From a virus: a stretch of 25,437 bases of DNA. The position numbers and the translations under genes are program-made. The notes under the pieces are model-generated. The model made no database searches and was not told where the DNA came from. It saw only the letters and a program-made list of their open reading frames with translations. Below, piece by piece: positions 9,638 to 24,748 of the stretch (position 1 is the first letter of the stretch; every line of letters begins with the position of its first letter). Location: positions 1 through 25,437 of the IMG/VR virus record IMGVR_UViG_3300009412_000031, one strand, 5' to 3'.

Positions 9638-9846
9638 GCCAAGCACGACTAATGAAGATCCACGACGCCGCAACCTACCTTGGCATGAGCGTAACCAAGC
9701 TGAAATCCAAGGGCCTGCCCGTCCGGCGCGATGGCGGCAACGTCCTATATGACCGCCTGGACCTTGACGATTACGCGGACAACCTGCCGTATGATGGCAA
9801 AAAGCAATCGGAGGGCGTAGAGGAATGGCAAAAGGCGTTCGACTAA
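9634..9846 (+). CDS. excisionase-like helix-turn-helix protein
   Basis: A 70-residue protein with a MerR/HTH_17-type N-terminus: LMKIHDAATYLGMSVTKLKS (about 6-25) as the helix-turn-helix, then PVRRDGGNVLYDRLDLDDYA as the wing and the strand that ends such domains. It directly precedes and overlaps (22 bases) the integrase, the usual place for Xis. Inferred role: bending the attachment site and steering the integrase to excision. Confidence 0.75.
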   Translation: MSQARLMKIHDAATYLGMSVTKLKSKGLPVRRDGGNVLYDRLDLDDYADNLPYDGKKQSEGVEEWQKAFD

Positions 9847-10856
9847 AGGGCATCAAGGTTGTCACGAAGCCCAACGGCAAGCGATACGTTTACCGCCGCG
9901 TAAGGGGGCAATTCGTGTCACTGCCGGACCTGCCTGAGAACCACCCCGACTTTCTGCGGGCCTATGTGGACGCCGAGCATTACGCCCCGACAGACGGGAC
10001 GCTTGCCAGCACGATCAAGCTATTCATTGCCTCGAATGACTTCAAACAACGCAAGGAAAGCACCCGCAAGGTATGGCGGCGCAGGCTTGAGAAGATCGCC
10101 ATTCAGTACGGCAGTTCGCCCATCGACAAGCTGACGACCGATTTAGTCAACAAAGCCATTCGCAAGGTATCCCCCGGCGCACAGCGGGGAGAGCGTACAA
10201 TCTGGCGGGCTATCTTCGCTTTTGCGCAATCTGAGTTCCTGCGCAGCGACAACCCTGCCAAGGATGCCATGATCGGCAAGACAAAGGCCACACCGCACGG
10301 CACATGGACGCCAGACGACATCAAAGCATTTCGTAAGCGCTGGCCTGTAGGCACGCCAGAGCGCCAAGCCTTCGAGGTGATATACTGGACCGCTGCGCGT
10401 TGCGTTGATGCGGCTGTGATAGGCTGGCAGCACGTTAGCGACGGCGTGCTTGAATTTGTGCAAGAGAAAACAGGGGGCACAGCCGTTGTGCCGATCACCG
10501 CGCCCGTTGCCCCGTATTTGGAGGCTGATCGCCGCTTGTTCCTGGATGCCGCATCCCCTGACCTGCTATTCATCCTGACGACCACGGGCAAGGGCCGATC
10601 TGTGAAGGCTCTGAGCCAATTTGTAAGCCGTGCCGCCCGCGATGCTGGCCTAGAGAGCCGGACAGCCCACGGCCTGCGCCGCGCCCGCGCCGTGATCCTT
10701 GCTGAGAACGGATGGACGCCGCACCAAATCGGGGCATGGACGGGGCATGAATCTTTGGCCGAGGTCAGCCATTACACCCGCGATGCGAACAAAAGAAGCA
10801 TGGTTGTTGGCAACCACGTTGGAAACTCCGGCAATGTGAAGCAGTTTCCGTCATAA
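9825..10856 (+). CDS. int: prophage tyrosine integrase
   Basis: A 343-residue tyrosine recombinase. It has a core-binding domain (about 58-140, LASTIKLFIASNDFK) and a catalytic domain with Arg192 (TAARCVDAA), Lys215 (QEKTGGTA), the HGLRR box (His282, Arg285), His308 (WTGHES) and the nucleophile Tyr317 (SHYTRD). All expected catalytic residues are present, so it should be active. It integrates and, with the Xis-like protein, excises the prophage. A tRNA 3'-half core lies 24 bases after its stop, so it most likely uses a tRNA-Arg gene as attachment site. The start overlaps the preceding gene. It is the last gene of the early operon. Confidence 0.92.
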   Translation: MAKGVRLKGIKVVTKPNGKRYVYRRVRGQFVSLPDLPENHPDFLRAYVDAEHYAPTDGTLASTIKLFIASNDFKQRKESTRKVWRRRLEKIAIQYGSSPIDKLTTDLVNKAIRKVSPGAQRGERTIWRAIFAFAQSEFLRSDNPAKDAMIGKTKATPHGTWTPDDIKAFRKRWPVGTPERQAFEVIYWTAARCVDAAVIGWQHVSDGVLEFVQEKTGGTAVVPITAPVAPYLEADRRLFLDAASPDLLFILTTTGKGRSVKALSQFVSRAARDAGLESRTAHGLRRARAVILAENGWTPHQIGAWTGHESLAEVSHYTRDANKRSMVVGNHVGNSGNVKQFPS

Positions 10857-10880
10857 AAATAAGGGGTTTGAAGTAGTTTA

Positions 10881-10925
10881 TGGCGGACCCTAGAGGATTC
10901 GAACCTCTGGCCTCTGCCTTCGGAG
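10881..10925 (-). other. tRNA-Arg(CCG) 3' half, candidate attachment-site core
   Basis: On the minus strand these 45 bases are the 3' half of a tRNA: anticodon loop CTCCGAA (anticodon CCG), stem strand GGCAG, variable AGGCC, T arm AGAGG-TTCGAAT-CCTCT, acceptor strand AGGGTCC, discriminator G and CCA (10881-10883). The base next to the loop should begin CTGCC on the 5' side, but the sequence there reads ACCAG, and no D arm or 5' acceptor follows. So this is not a functional tRNA gene. Phage integrases commonly use exactly this segment as core. It sits just downstream of the integrase at 9825-10856. Confidence 0.8.
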
Positions 10926-10982
10926 CTGGTCTAAGGGCCTATCCGAATTGCACGATAGGGCACGCCAGAGCACGATAACCAC

Positions 10983-11003
10983 CTGAAAATTATTGATTTT
11001 CAG
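10983..11003. repeat. perfect inverted repeat between the two integrases
   Basis: CTGAAAAT (10983-10990) and ATTTTCAG (10996-11003) are separated by TATTG. No T-run follows, so it is unlikely to be a standard terminator. It may be an integrase arm-type or regulatory site near the attachment core. The remaining bases of 10926-11103 hold no credible gene. Confidence 0.4.
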
Positions 11004-11103
11004 AATCCGCTCTCCGAAGTCTCTATCCGAGAATACGCCTTGATTTCCGCCCGCGTGCTTGCGTGGTGCTTACTCGAAATCGGGGCTTCCGAGGGACGGG
11101 AGC

Positions 11104-12426
11104 ATGACCAAACTGACCAAACGGTTCGTAGAGACCGCCGAGCCGCAGAGCAAAGGTCACGTCATCTGGGATGACGAACTGCCGGGCTTCGGTCTTCGTG
11201 TCTATCCCTCGGGCAAGCGCAGCTACATCGTCCAGTACCGCTCTCGTGGCCGTTCACGTCGCTACACGATTGGCCTTCATGGCGCCTGGACGCCCGAGAC
11301 CGCCCGCCGCGAAGCCAAGGCCCTGCTTGGACATGTCGCGCATGGCGGCGATCCTGCTGAAGAACGCGAGGAAGATCGCAAGGCGCTGACCATCAAGCAG
11401 CTCTGCGAGCAGTATATCGCCGACATGGAAGCTGGCCTCATCCTGGGAAAAGGCGGCCGGCCAAAGAAGGACACCACGATCGCCACCGATGTCGGCCGTA
11501 TCCGCAGGCACATCATTCCTCTTCTCGGGGCACGACGTGTGCGGGACATCACCAAGCCGGACATGAACAATCTGATGAAGGACATCATTGCCGGCAAGAC
11601 GCGCGTGACCGTGAAGACCGAAAAGCTCCGCGGCAAGGCCATCGTCCGCGGCGGCCGCGGAACCGCGATCCGAACGATGGGTCTGCTTGGCGGCATCTTC
11701 TCATACGCAGTCGAGGCTGGGGTGATCGAGCACAATCCCACGCATGGCCTCCGCAAACCGAAATATCAGGTCCGCGACCGCCGGCTCAGCGAAGCCGAGT
11801 ATCGGGTTCTAGGCAGCATTCTCAGGGAGGCGCAGGGAAGCGACCGCTACAGGATACATGCCGAGATCCTCCGGCTGATCGCGGTGACGGGCTGCCGGCG
11901 CGGCGAAATCGTCAATCTCAAATGGAGCGAGGTCGATCTCGAAGGGAGCTGCCTGCGGTTGATCGACAGCAAGGAAGGCTCCTCGGTTCGTCCGGTTGGG
12001 CTCCCCGTCGTGGAGTATCTAGAGGAGGAGCGGCCTCAGAGAACCGGCACCTACGTCTTTCCCGGCCAGGGCATCGACAACGCGGTCGGAAACTTCCCGC
12101 AGAGCTGGAAGAAGCTGTTCAAGGACACACCGCTCTGGGACGTCACACCTCACGTGCTCCGGCACAGTTTCGCCAGCATCGCGAACGATCTGGGCTTCAC
12201 CGAGATCACGATTGCCGCGCTGATCGGTCATGCCAAGGGATCAGTCACGAGCAAATACGTCCACACACTCGATTCTACACTGATCATGGCGGCGGACACC
12301 GTGTCCGGCTATGTGAAAGCCTTACTTGAAGGCGTCGAGTTCAGGCGCAACACATACACGCTGGATCGTCAGTCGCGGCAAAGTGCGATCGATCAAATGC
12401 TCAGTGACGCGAGGGCTGCTGACTAA
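11104..12426 (+). CDS. second tyrosine integrase, DUF4102 arm-binding type
   Basis: A 440-residue integrase of the P4/genomic-island type. The N-terminal DUF4102 domain (about 1-90) holds DDELPGFGLRVYPSGKRSYI. A SAM-like core-binding domain (about 95-215) follows, then the catalytic domain with the Arg box TGCRRGE (262-268), Lys290, HVLRHS (His350, Arg353), GHAKGSV (His376) and Tyr385. It is complete and probably active. The ATG at 11104 with GGGACGGG upstream fits the usual 'KLTK' N-terminus; a start 45 bases earlier is less likely. It lies right after the tRNA-fragment core and points into the island, as expected for an element inserted at a tRNA. The family differs from the prophage integrase, which argues for two separate elements. 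Confidence 0.9.
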   Translation: MTKLTKRFVETAEPQSKGHVIWDDELPGFGLRVYPSGKRSYIVQYRSRGRSRRYTIGLHGAWTPETARREAKALLGHVAHGGDPAEEREEDRKALTIKQLCEQYIADMEAGLILGKGGRPKKDTTIATDVGRIRRHIIPLLGARRVRDITKPDMNNLMKDIIAGKTRVTVKTEKLRGKAIVRGGRGTAIRTMGLLGGIFSYAVEAGVIEHNPTHGLRKPKYQVRDRRLSEAEYRVLGSILREAQGSDRYRIHAEILRLIAVTGCRRGEIVNLKWSEVDLEGSCLRLIDSKEGSSVRPVGLPVVEYLEEERPQRTGTYVFPGQGIDNAVGNFPQSWKKLFKDTPLWDVTPHVLRHSFASIANDLGFTEITIAALIGHAKGSVTSKYVHTLDSTLIMAADTVSGYVKALLEGVEFRRNTYTLDRQSRQSAIDQMLSDARAAD

Positions 12427-12535: not shown

Positions 12536-13726
12536 TTAGGTGTAGAACGCGAACTGGTCCAGCGTCAGCAGAGCTTGAAGGGCGCGAGGCATAGTGTATT
12601 GGTCCGCTGTCAAAGCCCCGTGACCAACAGCGTGGCGCGAGGCGACGCCGCCGTCGCGACCACGCTCGAAGTCAGCAAAGGCGTAGTCGCGCAGATAGGC
12701 CGCGAACTCTGTAGGGAAATACAGTGTATCCTTTCCTACTCGCTCTGCGGCAAGTTCAACAGCGAAGTCCAAAAGCTTTTTGAGCTTCCTCGTGTGCTCT
12801 CCATGCGTCCGGAAATACGCGTCCGCCAGAACGCCCTCAATCTCGGTGAGTACGTTCTTAATAACCGACACTGGATCACGCATCTTGAAGGCGTCGACAG
12901 CGGATTGAAGGATAATCTCCCGACTTTTCAGGTGGGGCCGCTGCATCCAGCGCTCAAACATCCGGGCCAGGCGGGCGTCATCAAACTTCGCAACGAGCGC
13001 CTTTTCCTCATCGTCTAGCTCGAACCCGGACTGATACATCGAGACCAGCTTGCCGAATTCGCCGCTCATTAACTCCAGGAAGGGAAACCAGCCAGCCCCT
13101 ACTAGGTGTCCGAAAGTGGGTTGGTGGGCAATGGCCGCGTAGAGGTCGGCATACTTCATCCGGCGATATAGGGTACCCAGGTCCCGTTTAGCATCGGCGA
13201 TGGATAGCTCACTGTTGGAGTTGCCGTCGAAAAGGAGACCGAAGCGCCAGCCTTCGCGGAATATGCAAAGGATACGATCTTGAGATCCCACCTCGACCAG
13301 CGGAAACCACATCCCCCGAACGTCCGCGATGTCATTCTCGTACAGTACTGTTCCCGCCGCCAGCGAGCCGGGTCTTTTTAAGGTAGATTCGTGCATCACC
13401 GCCGCTGCATCCACCCACAGCTCCGCCGAATTATCCGGCCGAATGACCAAGAAAACCGTATTGGCCATGGCGAGTTGGATGTAAGAGCCGGCTTGCCGCG
13501 CGTAGTGCTCAACAGCGGCAACCAGATTCCCTACAATGTCGTGGAATAGCTTCTGGTCAGACGAAGCCACAATCCGTGTCCATGCACTGGCGGTCTCGCC
13601 GCCGCGGGCTGACTCCGCAAGGATGGCGTGAATATTGACACCCGTGAGGAGGATCGGCTCGCCGCCGTTCCTCACATCAATGCCCTTGCGCAGTGCCTGA
13701 TTCGGCGGTTGGTTATCGCCCTTCAT
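12536..13726 (-). CDS. unknown 396-aa protein with C-terminal HEPN-like RxxxxH motif
   Basis: Last gene of the minus-strand four-gene block. I recognise no named family. The N-terminal half is mixed alpha/beta (ILLTGVNIHAILAES, VFLVIRPDNSAELWVD, FGLLFDGNS). The second half is helical, with a charged region around 285-330 (THGEHTRKLKKLLDFAVELA). The C-terminus reads SRHAVGHGALTADQYTMPRA and a final helix, which fits a HEPN-type Rx4-6H RNase signature (Arg364, His369) and the 'R-H-x-x-x-H-G' ends of many abortive-infection proteins. Start at 13726, 14 bases after the HNH stop, with AAGG upstream; a 25-residue longer start at 13801 would overlap the HNH gene by 59 bases. Inferred role: RNase effector of the block. 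Confidence 0.65.
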   Translation of the reverse strand: MKGDNQPPNQALRKGIDVRNGGEPILLTGVNIHAILAESARGGETASAWTRIVASSDQKLFHDIVGNLVAAVEHYARQAGSYIQLAMANTVFLVIRPDNSAELWVDAAAVMHESTLKRPGSLAAGTVLYENDIADVRGMWFPLVEVGSQDRILCIFREGWRFGLLFDGNSNSELSIADAKRDLGTLYRRMKYADLYAAIAHQPTFGHLVGAGWFPFLELMSGEFGKLVSMYQSGFELDDEEKALVAKFDDARLARMFERWMQRPHLKSREIILQSAVDAFKMRDPVSVIKNVLTEIEGVLADAYFRTHGEHTRKLKKLLDFAVELAAERVGKDTLYFPTEFAAYLRDYAFADFERGRDGGVASRHAVGHGALTADQYTMPRALQALLTLDQFAFYT

Positions 13727-13742
13727 CGAATGGACCTTGCTA

Positions 13743-14597
13743 TCAATGCGGTTGAGGTTGAATTCGGATCGCCTCAAAGCCGCCGTCACAGAAATCTTCA
13801 TTCCCGGCTAGGGCTCGATAAAGTTTGGCGAGCCAGTAGTTCGGGCCTGACACTTCCTCGAAGTCCTCCGCTCCCTCGATCAGCTTCTGCGCGACGCGCT
13901 CCGCATTTTCACCTGAACCAAAAGCGCGACGAAGCGCCGGGTACTGCCCTCCCAAATGTTCGAGGCCCATTCGTCTGTACCGGTCAGCAAGGTTGAGCTC
14001 GTTGAAGTGCGACCGCAGATGCTGGAAGGTCTGAAGCGACATCCCGGCCGGCCTCGTCAGACGATAGGATAGAATCAGTGCGTCAGCCTCCATACGCGCT
14101 CGCACCGCTAGAAATGCCACGTCTGGGATCACGTCATAACAGGGGTGCAGGAACATCCGTACGTTTGTTCCCTCGTCCAGAATGCGATCTCGCTTGCGCG
14201 TGTTGCAGACTGCGCAGCTCGGCACGAGATTCTTCGGGAACACTGAGAACTCTGGATATTGCTCCTTCGGCAAATAGTGGTCGAGCGTCGAGGACTCGCT
14301 GATCCCGCAGAACGGACACCGCGCGACGCTGATTCTCTTTAGGAGGCGACCCCGGAGCGTCGTCATCGGTTTGGTCTCTACGGTGAACGCGTGCCGCATC
14401 GCCTCTTTCTGCGGGTCAGTTAGCTGGGCTTCATCCAGCCCGCCAACCTCTGGCACTGCATCCTCGTAGCCCTGATAGGCGGCGAGCACCTCACCGCGCG
14501 CCGCCTGCATGCGGCCGCGCCGCGGTTGGCGCTTGGCCGCGGCGATATCATCGAACACATCCGTCGCATCGACGGGGAGCAGCGGGGCCGAGCGCAT
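13743..14597 (-). CDS. HNH nuclease of PtuB-like type
   Basis: A 284-residue protein with a clear HNH core: CPFCG (94-98), TLDHYLPKEQYPEF (104-117, catalytic His107 expected), NLVPSCAVCNTRKRD (123-137). The N-terminal 85 residues and the helical C-terminus (about 170-284) lie outside known domains. The start is three bases after the ATPase stop, with GAGGAG inside the end of that gene, so the two are translationally coupled. An ATPase followed directly by an HNH nuclease is the arrangement of the Septu defence system (PtuA, PtuB). Inferred role: DNA-cutting effector controlled by the ATPase. Relation to true PtuB is by motif and context only. Confidence 0.8.
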   Translation of the reverse strand: MRSAPLLPVDATDVFDDIAAAKRQPRRGRMQAARGEVLAAYQGYEDAVPEVGGLDEAQLTDPQKEAMRHAFTVETKPMTTLRGRLLKRISVARCPFCGISESSTLDHYLPKEQYPEFSVFPKNLVPSCAVCNTRKRDRILDEGTNVRMFLHPCYDVIPDVAFLAVRARMEADALILSYRLTRPAGMSLQTFQHLRSHFNELNLADRYRRMGLEHLGGQYPALRRAFGSGENAERVAQKLIEGAEDFEEVSGPNYWLAKLYRALAGNEDFCDGGFEAIRIQPQPH

Positions 14598-14600
14598 CCG

Positions 14601-16163
14601 CTACTCCTCGATCTCGTCGCGAATGCTCAAAACGTAGGAGCGCGCCGCAAAGCCCAGCTTGCGACCGAACGCCTCCTCTATCTCCTCAAGCGTGTTTCGA
14701 CGCGCCAGCGCTCTCAACGTCTCGTGCCAATCGGTCGAGCCGTCGCCGAGATTGAAGACCTCTTGTGTGATGACGCCGATGCTTTCCGCGAACGTCTCCA
14801 CGCTCGGCGCTACGACGCGGGTCTGGTCCGCCGTTCGGCGCAGGACCTGGACATATTTCGCCGGGGTTTCCTGCAAGACCACCGGCGAGTGTGTGGCGAT
14901 GATCGCATAGCCGTCGAAGGCTTCGAGACATGCCCGCACGCTCTTGAGAAATGCGGCGAGCAGCGGCGGATGGAGGTGAGTTTCCGGCTCGTCAATGAGA
15001 ACCAGTGTCGGCTCCGACCCCGCGATATGCGCTGTGAGCTCGGTGACGATCTTGAGGACAGCCTTGTGACCACTGCTCAGTCCACGGAAAAGCTCCCCGA
15101 GTTCTTCATCATCGCGATTGGCGTAGAGTTGGGTCAATCCGATGCGCTGAAACGATGGGTCGCGAAGGAGCGGTTTCAAGACCTCCAGCAGGTTCTCTAG
15201 GCGGTCGGCTTGACCGACGCGCTTTAGCGCCGACAGGAACTCTGCCTCGATCTCCGCCGAAGTTCGCAGCCGATAGGCCTGCTCACCATCCGGCGCGTCA
15301 TCGTCCGATCGCTCGCGAAGACCGCAATAGACGTATCCGAAGATTTCTCCGCTCTCCTGGAGCCTCTCCTTTTCCCCCTCGGTGCGTCCTGGAATGACAA
15401 AGGTGTCGAACGCGCTGTATGACACCACGACCACTGTCTTGAAGGGCGGCGCGGTGCCGACGAACCGACCCGCCGCGTTGTCCAGCACATCTTCTTTGCT
15501 CCCGTAACCGTAGCCGCTCGCCACGATGGCGAGGTTCGAGAGCAGCCGGGTCTTGCCCGTCCCGTTGTAACCAATCAGGGCGTTGATGCGGTTCGGCAGC
15601 CGGCCACGTCGCCGAAAATCGAAGTCGATCGTGAAGGCGTTCGAGTGTCGCGCCACCCGCGTCTTGAACTTAACCTTGAAACCCGCGTTTCGTCGTTTCG
15701 CTGGCAGGGTAGGAGCACGTAGTAGCCGTGCGGCATCATTTATGGTCCGCTTGGCGCCGCTAAAACGCAGCAGCGAAACCTGATAGGCCTCGCTGTCTTC
15801 GACGCTGGCCTTGATCTCGTCGTCGAACGCGACATCTCGAAGACCTCTGAAATATGGTTCGAAGACGTCACGACCAAGTTTATAGATTGTCTCATAATAG
15901 TCGAGGTCTGCACCTAGCGAGGCATGGCCGGTGGGTAACTCCTGAAAGGACCGCCTGGGCATTTTGGTGTAGCCGCTGGTTCGACCCGCCTCGATTATCT
16001 TGATGCTGCCGAGATCGTAGCTTTCATCGGCCGACATGTGCAGCGTGACGTGAAAAGTGGTCTTGTAACCATAATCATCCCAGTTATCCTGAACTAGCAC
16101 TGCATGTGGGTAACGATTGGTCGTGGGCGAATCGCCTGACCTGAATTTGACGACGAACCTCAT
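14601..16163 (-). CDS. OLD/PtuA-like AAA ATPase
   Basis: A 520-residue ABC/SMC-type ATPase. After an N-terminal domain of about 190 residues (DNWDDYGYKTTFHVTLH near its start), Walker A is GYNGTGKT (198-205). The ABC-like signature LSSGHK is at 362-367, Walker B LVLIDEPETHLHP at 387-399 and the switch histidine in ATHSP (423-427). This set, with 'ETHLHP', is typical of the OLD and PtuA families. No Toprim domain is visible at the C-terminus, so it is not a standard OLD nuclease; the partner HNH likely supplies the cutting. ATG 16163 has GGGGGAG eight bases upstream; an in-frame GTG at 16178 is less likely. It lies between TrlF-like and HNH genes in one operon. Confidence 0.85.
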   Translation of the reverse strand: MRFVVKFRSGDSPTTNRYPHAVLVQDNWDDYGYKTTFHVTLHMSADESYDLGSIKIIEAGRTSGYTKMPRRSFQELPTGHASLGADLDYYETIYKLGRDVFEPYFRGLRDVAFDDEIKASVEDSEAYQVSLLRFSGAKRTINDAARLLRAPTLPAKRRNAGFKVKFKTRVARHSNAFTIDFDFRRRGRLPNRINALIGYNGTGKTRLLSNLAIVASGYGYGSKEDVLDNAAGRFVGTAPPFKTVVVVSYSAFDTFVIPGRTEGEKERLQESGEIFGYVYCGLRERSDDDAPDGEQAYRLRTSAEIEAEFLSALKRVGQADRLENLLEVLKPLLRDPSFQRIGLTQLYANRDDEELGELFRGLSSGHKAVLKIVTELTAHIAGSEPTLVLIDEPETHLHPPLLAAFLKSVRACLEAFDGYAIIATHSPVVLQETPAKYVQVLRRTADQTRVVAPSVETFAESIGVITQEVFNLGDGSTDWHETLRALARRNTLEEIEEAFGRKLGFAARSYVLSIRDEIEE

Positions 16164-16215
16164 TCCAATCTCCCCCACACGGCGGGCATCTTCATCAGTG
16201 ACGCGGAGTGCAACC

Positions 16216-21018: not shown

Positions 21019-22494
21019 CTAAACCGACCGCTCCCGCCGGTCACGCTCTTCGTCTGGATCAGGTTGCGCCTCTACGGACTCGACAAACTCTATCACGTAG
21101 TCGGCGGGAAGGCGGTGTTCGAATACACCAGTCAGAACATGGTGCTTATACCAAGTGTACGGCCTGAGGCTGTCATTAATGAAATCAGGCGTGGCTAGAT
21201 AGACCAGAGCCTTCTTGCGTCGGCCTTGGGCGTCCACAACCGATACCGTTGCATCCCGATAGCCCTTGTTGAGGCCTTCGGCGGCATCAAGCTTGTGACG
21301 CTCGGCCGGATCAATAGCGTACAAGACACCGATAACGCGATCCGTGTCGTCGCCCGTCTCGAAGGCATCGCACTTTCCCGACTGGTCCTTGCTTCGTTTG
21401 TGAAACCGGAGGACATGGCCTGAAAGAAGCGCCGTTCCGAGCGCACGAGCGCTTGGCGTCCGGGCCTTCAGACGCTCCGTCGACATGTTCGACCCATACG
21501 CAAAATATAGAAGCGACGGCGCCGCTTCCGACTTTTCTTCGGGCAACGGCAGAATTGGTGGGTCTCCAAGTGCCACAATCGTGCGAAGGGGAACGGTCAT
21601 GATCGAATGATCGTCGGTGGTCTCGCCCTCGCGGGTGATGATGGATACGCCTTCCTCAAGCTCTGCTAAAGGCACCGGTCGCCCTGTCCAGCCACAGTCT
21701 GAACAACGCGGGCGCTCCCACAAGATTCCTGGTGCCGCCGAATTCTCGCCCTCTTCCGGTTCCAGGCGCGGCGATCCACATTCCGGACACGCCGAAGGTA
21801 CGCCGCGCAATGCACGAACGACGAGACTGGCCGCCATTCCGATTGCATGCTGGGTGAGACCGCAAGCCATGTCCGCGTCGCTCCAAGTGCCGGACTTTGC
21901 ATGGGTGAGCCAGTTGGCAAACGTCCAGGCGGACTCAAGAGCGCTCTTGATCGCCCCCCGCCGCTCCTTGTTTGAGCCGCCGGGCAGCAAGTCGTTGCAG
22001 ATGACTTCCGTCCATGACCGGAAGTCGGCGCGCTTGGGCGGGTCGTCCGTCCATACCGCAGCATCCTGAGCGACGCCGACGAACTCTAGCAGGGTTTCCC
22101 GACAGCGAACGCCTACCGCTTGAATGTCAGCCAGATTCTGGGCTTGCGTGACGGCGTCGACGACGTCGCCCAGCTTCGAAAATACGGTGCCGAACGGCAA
22201 AATGCGCTTTTCGTCTACCTGCTGTTCGCGCGTGCGCGGAATGCGCAGGCAGAGTCCGATATGGAACGTCAGCGCAAGATCCATGTTCGGAAACTGGTCT
22301 TGCGAATAGAGGTTCGTCGGCTCCGTAATGACCCACCATCGATCCTTGTTCGTGTGAATGTCCCAGACGTGGTGGCGCGCATTAAGCACCGATTCCGAAT
22401 AGACTTTCTGCATGAAGGTGATTTCGAGGTCAGGCGCCTGCCACTCAAAATACTCCCGTACGTTCTCGGTTTCCTCTGGCGTCGATTTCAGCAT
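21019..22494 (-). CDS. zinc-ribbon protein fused to gamma-glutamylcyclotransferase-like domain
   Basis: A 491-residue protein. The N-terminal 230 residues are mostly helical and unknown (a helical pair about 105-145 and 178-232 could be HEPN-like, not shown). A zinc ribbon follows: CPECGSPRL (236-244) and CSDCGWTG (264-271). The C-terminal domain (about 328-470) is a GGCT/AIG2 fold with FAYGSNMS (331-338, the glutamyl-binding loop), HVLRFHKRSK and DAAEGLNKGYR, where Glu406 is the expected catalytic acid. GGCT enzymes release 5-oxoproline from gamma-glutamyl peptides. The three-part fusion is unusual. ATG follows the HNH_5 stop with no gap (TAGATG) and GGGGGAG upstream, so the genes are coupled. 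Confidence 0.8.
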   Translation of the reverse strand: MLKSTPEETENVREYFEWQAPDLEITFMQKVYSESVLNARHHVWDIHTNKDRWWVITEPTNLYSQDQFPNMDLALTFHIGLCLRIPRTREQQVDEKRILPFGTVFSKLGDVVDAVTQAQNLADIQAVGVRCRETLLEFVGVAQDAAVWTDDPPKRADFRSWTEVICNDLLPGGSNKERRGAIKSALESAWTFANWLTHAKSGTWSDADMACGLTQHAIGMAASLVVRALRGVPSACPECGSPRLEPEEGENSAAPGILWERPRCSDCGWTGRPVPLAELEEGVSIITREGETTDDHSIMTVPLRTIVALGDPPILPLPEEKSEAAPSLLYFAYGSNMSTERLKARTPSARALGTALLSGHVLRFHKRSKDQSGKCDAFETGDDTDRVIGVLYAIDPAERHKLDAAEGLNKGYRDATVSVVDAQGRRKKALVYLATPDFINDSLRPYTWYKHHVLTGVFEHRLPADYVIEFVESVEAQPDPDEERDRRERSV

Positions 22495-23451
22495 CTAAAC
22501 TCCCCCGGACCGTGGCACAGGTCTCAATATCCCTTCGGTCGTTTTTGGATTAAATGTCAGTTCAAAGGCCTCGAAGGGTTGCGATCGTGGCACCAAATCT
22601 GACCAGTCGAACTGGAGCAGGTCGCTGAACTGGATCGGGAGATAGCCGCCCTCAGGTTTCGGGAGCTGCGCCGAAAACCGAACGCCAAGCCGACCGATCT
22701 CCGGGACGTGGTCATCGAGTTCGTCCGAACGCAGCCAGATTTGGAAGCAGACTGATCCGGCCATCAGCACGAAAATCATGTAGGGTGCGTGAGCTTGGTG
22801 GTCACGCCGGCGCAACAGGGTCCCCGCAAGCGCTGGCGGAGAATTCCCGACATAGGCATAAGAAAATCCAACCTGCAAAACGCCGCCATGTGGTTTGGCG
22901 TCCAGTTCCGCCAAGCTGGCGATCACTTTCCCAAACCTAGGCAACTCCTCGGGCGGAAGCATCGACAGAGCGATCTTCACCAAGGCCTTGTACGCATAGC
23001 GAGGCACGAAGATGTCACCCTCGACCGGCATTGTCAGTTTGAGGGAACCTGTAGCCTTGTCGACCCCGACCAATTCGTTGGCCTCGCCGTGAGAGGCAAC
23101 ACTAAGCTGACGCTTTCCTGCGACCACATTATGCCGCACGGTCGATTTCGATCCGGTCTGTCCGGTCTGGCGCACGCCGTTCCGGCCGCGCACGCCGCCA
23201 AATGTCAGGAACGGGCCGACCGCCTTGCATAGCGCATCTTCATAGACCGAGAACTTGGTGTTGCACGCCTTGCATTCATCGAGCGAGAACAATGTCCGGT
23301 TCCCGAACGCGACCGGAAGGGCATGGGCGTTGGTCGCTTTCCCGAAGGCGATCGCATCCGTCGCGCCGCAATATCGGCACCTCGTTCGATCACCGAGAAA
23401 TCTTTTCGCGCCACCGGGCTCAACCAGCTCCTGCGAAATGATGTCGTACAT
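22495..23451 (-). CDS. HNH_5-like nuclease, 318 aa
   Basis: A 318-residue protein with an N-terminal HNH_5-type zinc core: CRYCG (25-29), NAHALPVAFGN (41-51, His43 the likely catalytic residue), DECKACNTKFS (58-68) and Glu71. The remaining 240 residues form a larger alpha/beta domain (KLTMPVEGDIFVPRYAYKAL, MLPPEELPRFGKVIASLAEL) that I do not recognise. Start at 23451 (MYDIISQELV) with AGGTGG upstream; the longer frame to 23643 overlaps the next gene and is rejected. Coupled to the GGCT fusion gene. Inferred role: DNA-cutting or nicking partner in an uncharacterised defence module. Confidence 0.75.
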   Translation of the reverse strand: MYDIISQELVEPGGAKRFLGDRTRCRYCGATDAIAFGKATNAHALPVAFGNRTLFSLDECKACNTKFSVYEDALCKAVGPFLTFGGVRGRNGVRQTGQTGSKSTVRHNVVAGKRQLSVASHGEANELVGVDKATGSLKLTMPVEGDIFVPRYAYKALVKIALSMLPPEELPRFGKVIASLAELDAKPHGGVLQVGFSYAYVGNSPPALAGTLLRRRDHQAHAPYMIFVLMAGSVCFQIWLRSDELDDHVPEIGRLGVRFSAQLPKPEGGYLPIQFSDLLQFDWSDLVPRSQPFEAFELTFNPKTTEGILRPVPRSGGV

Positions 23452-23518
23452 ATTGCCACCTATCCGGAGCGGGCTTTCAGAAGTCGCTCGTAAATCCTGT
23501 TGGCGCCCCGAAAGCGAA

Positions 23519-24127
23519 CTATAAAGCCCGTGGTTTGGTCTTCTTGACGCGACGTACACGCGCTTTCGAGGCATCTTCCTTCTTGCTGGCCGGCTCTTCC
23601 TCCTCGTCCTCGGCGAGTGGCTCATCCAAGTCCTCTGCACCAATCTCGATCATCCGCGCCATCAGCGCATTCCAAAGCTGATCGTTGATCATCCCGTCGT
23701 CCCGCAGCTTTCGAAGGGGCGTGTAGGGGTTCTCTATCAGGATGTAGCTCACCGGCCCGCTAGGACCTTCCTTGATGTCGATAAAGCCGAGTTCCTGCAG
23801 GCGGCGGATGCGCGAAAGCCAGGTGCGCTGCGCGCGCTCGCCATCAAATCCTGAGAAGAACGCCATCTCACGAGGACGGCTCGCCGTGACAAACCCGTTA
23901 TTGTAGGTCCGGCACCACAGCTCGAAATAGGTCGACGATACCGGCTGTCCCTTCGTCAGGCTGTCCAGGATGCGCATGATCACTGGCATTGATCTGGGAA
24001 CGTTCAGCCATCCATCACTCTTTTCATATTCCCAGATCCGCGACCCGGCATCCCGCCAGAGATTGTCCCTGAGTTGCCGGGTGCGCCGATCGATCTTCGC
24101 TTTCGTTCTTTTGCTTCCAACTGCCAT
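23519..24127 (-). CDS. winged-helix-like protein with acidic/basic tail
   Basis: A 202-residue protein, first gene of the minus-strand block. The middle (about 65-130) looks like a winged helix: ASRPREMAFFSGFDGERAQR, WLSRIRRLQELGFIDIKEG and a strand pair VSYILIENP. It resembles replication-initiator-like or regulatory wHTH proteins of plasmids, but no family is certain. The tail (about 165-202) is acidic then basic (AEDEEEEPASKKEDASKARV). ATG 24127 is preceded by an alternative GTG. 67 bases separate it from the HNH_5 gene. DNA-binding control of the block is an inference. Confidence 0.65.
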   Translation of the reverse strand: MAVGSKRTKAKIDRRTRQLRDNLWRDAGSRIWEYEKSDGWLNVPRSMPVIMRILDSLTKGQPVSSTYFELWCRTYNNGFVTASRPREMAFFSGFDGERAQRTWLSRIRRLQELGFIDIKEGPSGPVSYILIENPYTPLRKLRDDGMINDQLWNALMARMIEIGAEDLDEPLAEDEEEEPASKKEDASKARVRRVKKTKPRAL

Positions 24128-24748
24128 CACGCATATACTCCAGCTTAGCTTCGGGCCAGGGTTTGGACGCCTGGCCCTAGGAAAACGTGCTTGCCGGCCG
24201 GACCATCAGTCTATCAGGCTTGGAACCCTGATGGGCTAGTGGGTCCGCTTTCCGTAGCCAAGAGATAGGCCAACATCTGTGTCGCTGCCAGGATTTAAGT
24301 CGGACTGAATACGCTGAGCTTGGGTTCAATATTGCGCATTGATACCCTGAGTTCGACATATATATGCCGGTTGGGATTACGAGTTGGACATCGGACAATT
24401 CAGATTTCGCTGTTAATTCAGGATGTTGCGCTTACGCGCGTGTGATCCGGGTATCATGGTTATCGCGTCATCCCACTGTGATCTCCGTGCTCATGGGGGA
24501 TGGGTGCAGGGTAAGGGGGGCACCAGGCGCCTGGCGGCAATGATATTTCCTTCCGCAAACTTCCATCCGCATCAAGCAAAGGTATGCGATTCCGTGGTCA
24601 GTTTGTCGTCATCGGCGAGCGCCTCATGGGCGACTATCAATTGACCGCGCCCCCAGTACCCAGCCTCAAACGACTAGGCTTCTACGGAAGGAGGTGAAAG
24701 AACTCTAGGTCTTTCCATATTCTCGTACTGCTCCTGAACATCGATGGG
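24128..24748. other. about 620 bases without a convincing gene
   Basis: Short frames here (for example minus 24177-24398, 73 aa, and plus 24423-24644, 73 aa) have no ribosome-binding site and no recognisable protein, so I leave them uncalled. I see no tRNA, rRNA or CRISPR. The stretch separates the divergent winged-helix gene (minus) and DUF932 gene (plus), and should hold both promoters. AT-rich patches lie at about 24355-24370 and 24410-24420. Confidence 0.6.

Follow-up and report, generated by a model that had tools for sequence, protein, structure and literature searches.

A gamma-glutamyl cyclotransferase (GGCT) domain was joined once to an older, widespread protein of three domains, namely an alpha/beta domain, a helical bundle that resembles HEPN, and a zinc ribbon. 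A representative of the resulting fusion, 491 residues long, is encoded in the window studied here (the whole stretch of 25,437 bases that was analysed, an IMG/VR record). The best explanation for this protein, to which we assign a probability of roughly 0.45, is that it is a solitary defence protein of abortive-infection-like type, mobile by horizontal transfer and extended by a GGCT domain. Established here are the domain make-up of the protein, the origin of the fusion in a single event, the purifying selection that acts on the GGCT residues, mobility as a single gene and neighbourhoods rich in defence genes.

The left part of the window carries phage-type genes and an integrase. After a second integrase (11059-12426) comes a run of minus-strand genes, which scans with Pfam, PADLOC and NCBIfam show to be, in order, a 421-aa open reading frame, a Septu-like PDC-M01B/A pair, TrlF, AbiEii/AbiEi, and finally the genes for the fusion, the HNH protein and the putative winged-helix (wHTH) protein. 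Given this succession of phage-type genes, second integrase and minus-strand defence genes, the initial annotation was correct in assigning the last three genes to a defence island (AbiEi/AbiEii, TrlF and the PDC-M01 pair adjoin them), and these genes, together with the defence genes, are probably not part of the prophage itself. The record is probably a prophage plus an adjoining island. The two integrases are tyrosine-type and stand in tandem at 9825-12426; the first, identified by eye, closes off the left part with its phage-type genes, and the island starts with the second. The PDC-M01A/PDC-M01B pair and the 421-aa minus-strand frame, which slightly overlaps PDC-M01B, occupy 12536-16178; searches of Pfam, PADLOC and NCBIfam with the 421-aa frame found nothing, and it is possibly a third component of the pair. 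The features that concern us most are listed below.

21019-22494, minus strand: third gene, an open reading frame of 491 aa encoding the fusion of alpha/beta domain, HEPN-like bundle, zinc ribbon and GGCT domain (Pfam, predicted structure, relatives)
22201-22494, minus strand: residues 1-98, alpha/beta N-terminal domain with the signature WWVIT..NLYSQ..F..D...FHxGL (alignment, models)
21799-22200, minus strand: residues 99-232, helical bundle, HEPN-like (alignment, models, structure search, hhalign)
21670-21798, minus strand: residues 233-275, zinc ribbon C236xxC239...C264xxC267 (alignment)
21517-21669, minus strand: residues 276-326, low-confidence linker (pLDDT mostly below 50; highest dN/dS)
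21073-21516, minus strand: residues 327-474, GGCT domain with YGSN at 333-336 and the catalytic-type Glu406 (Pfam, structure, alignment, dN/dS)
22495-23451, minus strand: HNH_5-like protein of 318 aa, a neighbour of the fusion but no conserved partner of it (Pfam, neighbourhood comparison)
23519-24130, minus strand: 203-aa protein, a neighbour only, whose family is frequent on small plasmids (a winged helix according to the initial annotation)

The predicted structure of the fusion protein has a mean pLDDT of 82. Beyond the GGCT domain, the libraries searched name no part of it: Pfam matches nothing in the first 306 residues, comparison of the N-terminal part with solved structures by sequence gave no significant match, and a viral structure library returned weak matches alone for the fusion protein, mostly to zinc ribbons. 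Searches of the fusion, HNH and wHTH proteins against the PADLOC 2.0 system models matched 0 families. The protein had been described as a helical N-terminal domain followed by a zinc ribbon and a GGCT fold. The cysteines of the CPECG/CSDCG ribbon are indeed found at 236, 239, 264 and 267, and the ribbon, which is of TFIIB/TFIIS type, spans residues 236-267. The N-terminal domain required revision: predicted models retain a helical bundle for residues 99-232, but residues 1-98 are alpha/beta.

Residues 330-467 match Pfam AIG2_2 at 45.7 bits (curated cut-off 27) and GGACT at 38.7 bits (cut-off 22.8), with YGSN (333-336) and Glu406 in the places given for them, and the predicted fold matches 3cry with an E-value of 5.7e-11 and a TM score of 0.81 of target. 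The domain shares its fold, YGSN loop and catalytic-type Glu with human GGCT (3cry/2i5t; Pfam GGACT/AIG2_2), to which it aligns from the YGSN loop through the catalytic-Glu region and further; unlike human GGCT, it is the C-terminal domain of a larger protein. Homologues without YGSN and Glu406 were named beforehand as refuting the initial reading of the module, and this did not come about: Y333, G334, N336 and E406 are kept in 32 of 32 fused proteins and Ser335 in 29 of 32. The median dN/dS of the GGCT domain is 0.122; the other folded domains lie at 0.062-0.116 and the linker at 0.203. The invariant residues, together with a dN/dS well below that of the linker, show that the enzyme site is under selection, and the domain apparently is intact and active, as judged from its residues.

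It is conceivable that a metabolic GGCT (one involved in glutathione-type turnover) became attached by chance to an unrelated protein, with no functional coupling between the two. A flexible, low-confidence linker is what such an accident might leave, and the N-terminal part occurs without GGCT in most relatives; however, the catalytic residues have remained invariant, and dN/dS low, throughout the wide transfer of the fusion, and we regard a chance association as distinctly unlikely.

When the N-terminal part was used as query in a genome scan, 80 loci were recovered, and plasmid and viral collections supplied further ones. The same GGCT fusion is present at 34 other loci from alpha-, beta- and gammaproteobacteria, a recurrence that exceeds chance; the remaining relatives, which make up the majority, consist of the N-terminal part alone (about 280-330 aa). 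In a tree of 62 proteins the 18 sampled fused proteins form a single clade (support 100/96), within which the window protein is the first branch, and the unfused sisters fall outside. This topology implies one fusion event, followed by wide transfer that included Luteimonas and Paraburkholderia. Each of 20 carrier genomes has one copy of the fusion, and in one order matches occur in 5 of 249 genomes (two of them weak). The N-terminal part has no relative in 50,697 phage records, which argues against a structural or replication role in phage. Within open-licence papers we found no description of the fusion. At two loci (L122 and L127) the fusion gene is split by a broken reading frame, and at a third (L083) an IS21-type element lies between the two parts. 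In Paraburkholderia domus (L164, 7001-10171) residues 1-123 of the N-terminal part are in frame with a type III restriction-like helicase; we weighed a second true fusion here and judged a deletion chimera more likely.

Within the helical bundle R132, E133, R179, W190 and H198 are invariant in the alignment, and the place of the RNxxxH motif reads (A/S/V/T)N194WLTH198: the Asn (nearly invariant) and the His are retained and the Arg is lost, such that the canonical HEPN Rx4-6H motif is absent. A survey of HEPN domains lists families in which the His is kept and the Arg is missing (PMC3710099). In structure search with the helical part, HEPN proteins ranked among the best by probability (2q00 at 0.97-0.99, HEPN-MNT toxins up to 0.98), but the E-values lay at 0.1-0.4 and ordinary four-helix bundles such as cytochrome b562 scored close behind. 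Profile comparison with DUF4145 and Abi_C, based on small samples, gave no signal. A stronger connection came through a distant match: the helical part aligns with the module C-terminal to AbiJ_NTD3 in another protein (hhalign probability 98.8, E-value 4.7e-17), although the HEPN status of that module is likewise not established. It is this homology that identifies the helical part as a shared module, at least one Abi-like protein included; the module lies behind several N-terminal parts, of which AbiJ_NTD3 is one, and constitutes an unnamed C-terminal domain family. Copies of it are carried by solitary plasmid and chromosomal proteins with varied N-terminal parts (L219, L221, L224-L226, and L223 at 1100-1768, which has AbiJ_NTD3). 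Membership of HEPN is likely rather than proven.

Among the closest known proteins are AbiJ and Tha-1. AbiJ proteins, in which AbiJ N-terminal domains are joined to HEPN domains in abortive-infection proteins (PMC3710099), resemble the window protein in being the product of a single gene in which an alpha+beta domain at the N-terminus precedes a helical module (HEPN in AbiJ, HEPN-like in the window protein), and the helical domain of the window protein is homologous to the module behind AbiJ_NTD3 in L223. Unlike them, the window protein has no AbiJ_NTD match in its N-terminal domain, lacks the R of Rx4-6H and carries a zinc ribbon and GGCT in addition. Tha-1, from Staphylococcus aureus prophages (PMC11087260), is similar in architecture: a solitary protein of about 300 aa, with an N-terminal part and HEPN, on mobile DNA. 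Tha has R265NSIMH270 and demonstrated RNase and anti-phage activity (PMC11087260), whereas the window family has (A/S/V/T)NWLTH together with the zinc ribbon and GGCT.

The initial annotation had correctly recognised three minus-strand genes (open reading frames at 21019-22494, 22495-23643 and 23519-24130), the last two abutting as TAG-ATG, and had proposed that they form one coupled defence module. On this view the wHTH protein would regulate the module, the HNH_5 protein would cut nucleic acid and the GGCT protein would act on a metabolite or modified peptide. The shared strand, the abutment and the surrounding island all favour the proposal. The HNH frame is listed as 22495-23643 on the minus strand, and its start is most likely the ATG at 23451 (318 aa) rather than the TTG at 23643; its stop (TAG, 22497-22495) directly abuts the ATG of the fusion at 22494, just upstream of which is a ribosome-site-like run, GGGGGAG. 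The HNH_5 identity holds in so far as the C..C/H/C..C residues are plainly present, but the Pfam score of 22.5 bits falls below the curated cut-off of 27.5; the protein stands near the stand-alone HNH_5 nucleases and is not a conserved partner of the fusion. The 203-aa putative winged-helix protein has no Pfam match and belongs to a family frequent on small plasmids of unrelated bacteria.

Comparison with other genomes largely refutes the coupling. Homologues of the HNH or wHTH protein are found near 0 of the 34 other fusion loci (blastp, E up to 1e-4, a search that a very distant HNH could escape, over mostly 7 kb per side and down to 0.8 kb upstream in short contigs); the fusion is therefore common without a homologue of this HNH protein nearby, a situation that had been named as refuting the module. 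Relatives of the HNH protein are likewise found apart from the fusion: the nearest (72% identity, found in 1 of 397 genomes) has no fusion in the 3.9 kb of DNA available around it, and homology between the two HNH genes stops near the TAG-ATG junction. Annotation around the plasmid HNH relatives that were inspected revealed no fusion neighbour, the plasmid genera with the HNH family do not overlap with the genera that carry the fusion family, and scanning of viral contigs found no relative of the HNH protein. We consider a coupled module very improbable; the HNH and wHTH genes are best explained as separate cargo beside the fusion. All-against-all clustering of flanking open reading frames yielded no other conserved partner, the commonest clusters being resolvases and integrases. 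That two genes abut without a gap in a single genome counts for little as evidence of an operon; here wider sampling dissolved the module and strengthened the fusion.

Pairwise DNA comparison of 17 fusion loci revealed that similarity ends no more than 130 nt upstream of the start and no more than 65 nt after the stop, and the flanks are unrelated. The moving unit is accordingly one gene and its own leader. At most fusion loci the gene has an upstream leader that contains a GGGAG-type ribosome site. In the window the end of the HNH gene has taken the place of this leader as far as the ribosome site, so that the TAG-ATG junction appears to be an event peculiar to the window. A motif like AAGCGGACAT lies near -117 to -122 and, inverted, near +39 to +45, at one or both ends of several loci, with copies by the gene ends at L095, L103, L113, L127, L128 and L145. 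The 10-mer itself occurs seven times in 1.65 Mb, six of them near the fusion gene family, and is inverted downstream; its pooled enrichment is modest and is drawn from related sequences. Locus by locus, a search for terminal inverted repeats gave scores no better than those of shuffles. It is possible that AAGCGGACAT is the terminal repeat of some mobile unit, but the statistics do not establish this.

Relatives also occur on conjugative elements and on plasmids, some as small as 5.8 kb, with mob and toxin-antitoxin genes next to them. This distribution, with its broad range of elements, would suit a protein that serves mobile elements in regulation or maintenance and has no role in defence: the zinc-ribbon core, being of TFIIB/TFIIS type, would bind nucleic acid or RNA polymerase and tune the expression of element or host, while GGCT would sense or edit a gamma-glutamyl metabolite. 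We consider this unlikely, since an AbiJ_NTD3 protein has the helical module too and anti-phage systems abound near the fusion in comparison with the control. The 109 proteins that flank fusion genes match 202 PADLOC models (E up to 1e-20), a figure that counts families rather than independent genes because the models overlap. The matches include Gabija A and B, two UG20-type reverse transcriptases, Lamassu LmuB, an Argonaute (pAgo), Dsr2 (confirmed individually, at L123), a CBASS-type cyclase and DISARM DrmMII. In the control, 97 proteins drawn from these genomes at arbitrary places match three models (GlgB-, deaminase- and PolA-type), all of which look like housekeeping functions; the control represents the random genome, not other islands. 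Enrichment among neighbours tells of the company that a gene keeps, not of its function, and the defence reading should be viewed with this in mind.

A solitary gene on plasmids and conjugative elements could encode an anti-defence or immunity factor, with GGCT or the zinc ribbon neutralising a toxin of the host or of a rival. In structure search the ribbon resembles Lar-type restriction-alleviation zinc ribbons, but the match is limited to 45-50 residues, there is no conserved partner toxin and the 50,697 phage records again count against the idea, which we think improbable.

Returning to the solitary, abortive-infection-like defence protein, we infer a role in defence, an RNA target and a substrate and role for GGCT. 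The older core, still alone in most relatives, comprises a putative sensing alpha/beta domain, the HEPN-like helical domain and the zinc ribbon, with GGCT gained once at its C-terminus. Most likely the N-terminal part would detect the invader or its RNA, the helical domain and zinc ribbon would bind or cut RNA, and GGCT would be a second effector or control enzyme, converting a gamma-glutamyl compound to 5-oxoproline. A corresponding division of labour has been proposed for Abi proteins, in which the N-terminal domains would meet the invader and HEPN would act as a suicidal RNase (PMC3710099). Counting against our reading are the insecure HEPN assignment and the chance that GGCT could be a metabolic passenger. 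If the protein does defend against phage, it would add gamma-glutamyl cyclisation to bacterial immunity, a chemistry that our searches of open-licence papers did not find there, and a new N-terminal domain family to the abortive-infection-like proteins. More specifically, it may represent an undescribed single-gene anti-phage family, a one-gene cassette in which GGCT was recruited to a HEPN-like immune protein; this we put forward tentatively and hold to be somewhat unlikely, but if true it would tie gamma-glutamyl chemistry (glutathione-like or of modified peptides) to bacterial immunity.

As to what GGCT contributes, it may drain a gamma-glutamyl metabolite, remove gamma-glutamyl marks or restrain the effector. 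As regards the removal of marks, GGCT genes in viral contigs sometimes adjoin amidoligases. Most GGCT matches in these contigs are small proteins that stand alone, and four of the neighbours scanned are amidoligases; across L003-L045 many such proteins begin with YFAYGSNM, and some lie near amidoligase or metallophosphatase genes.
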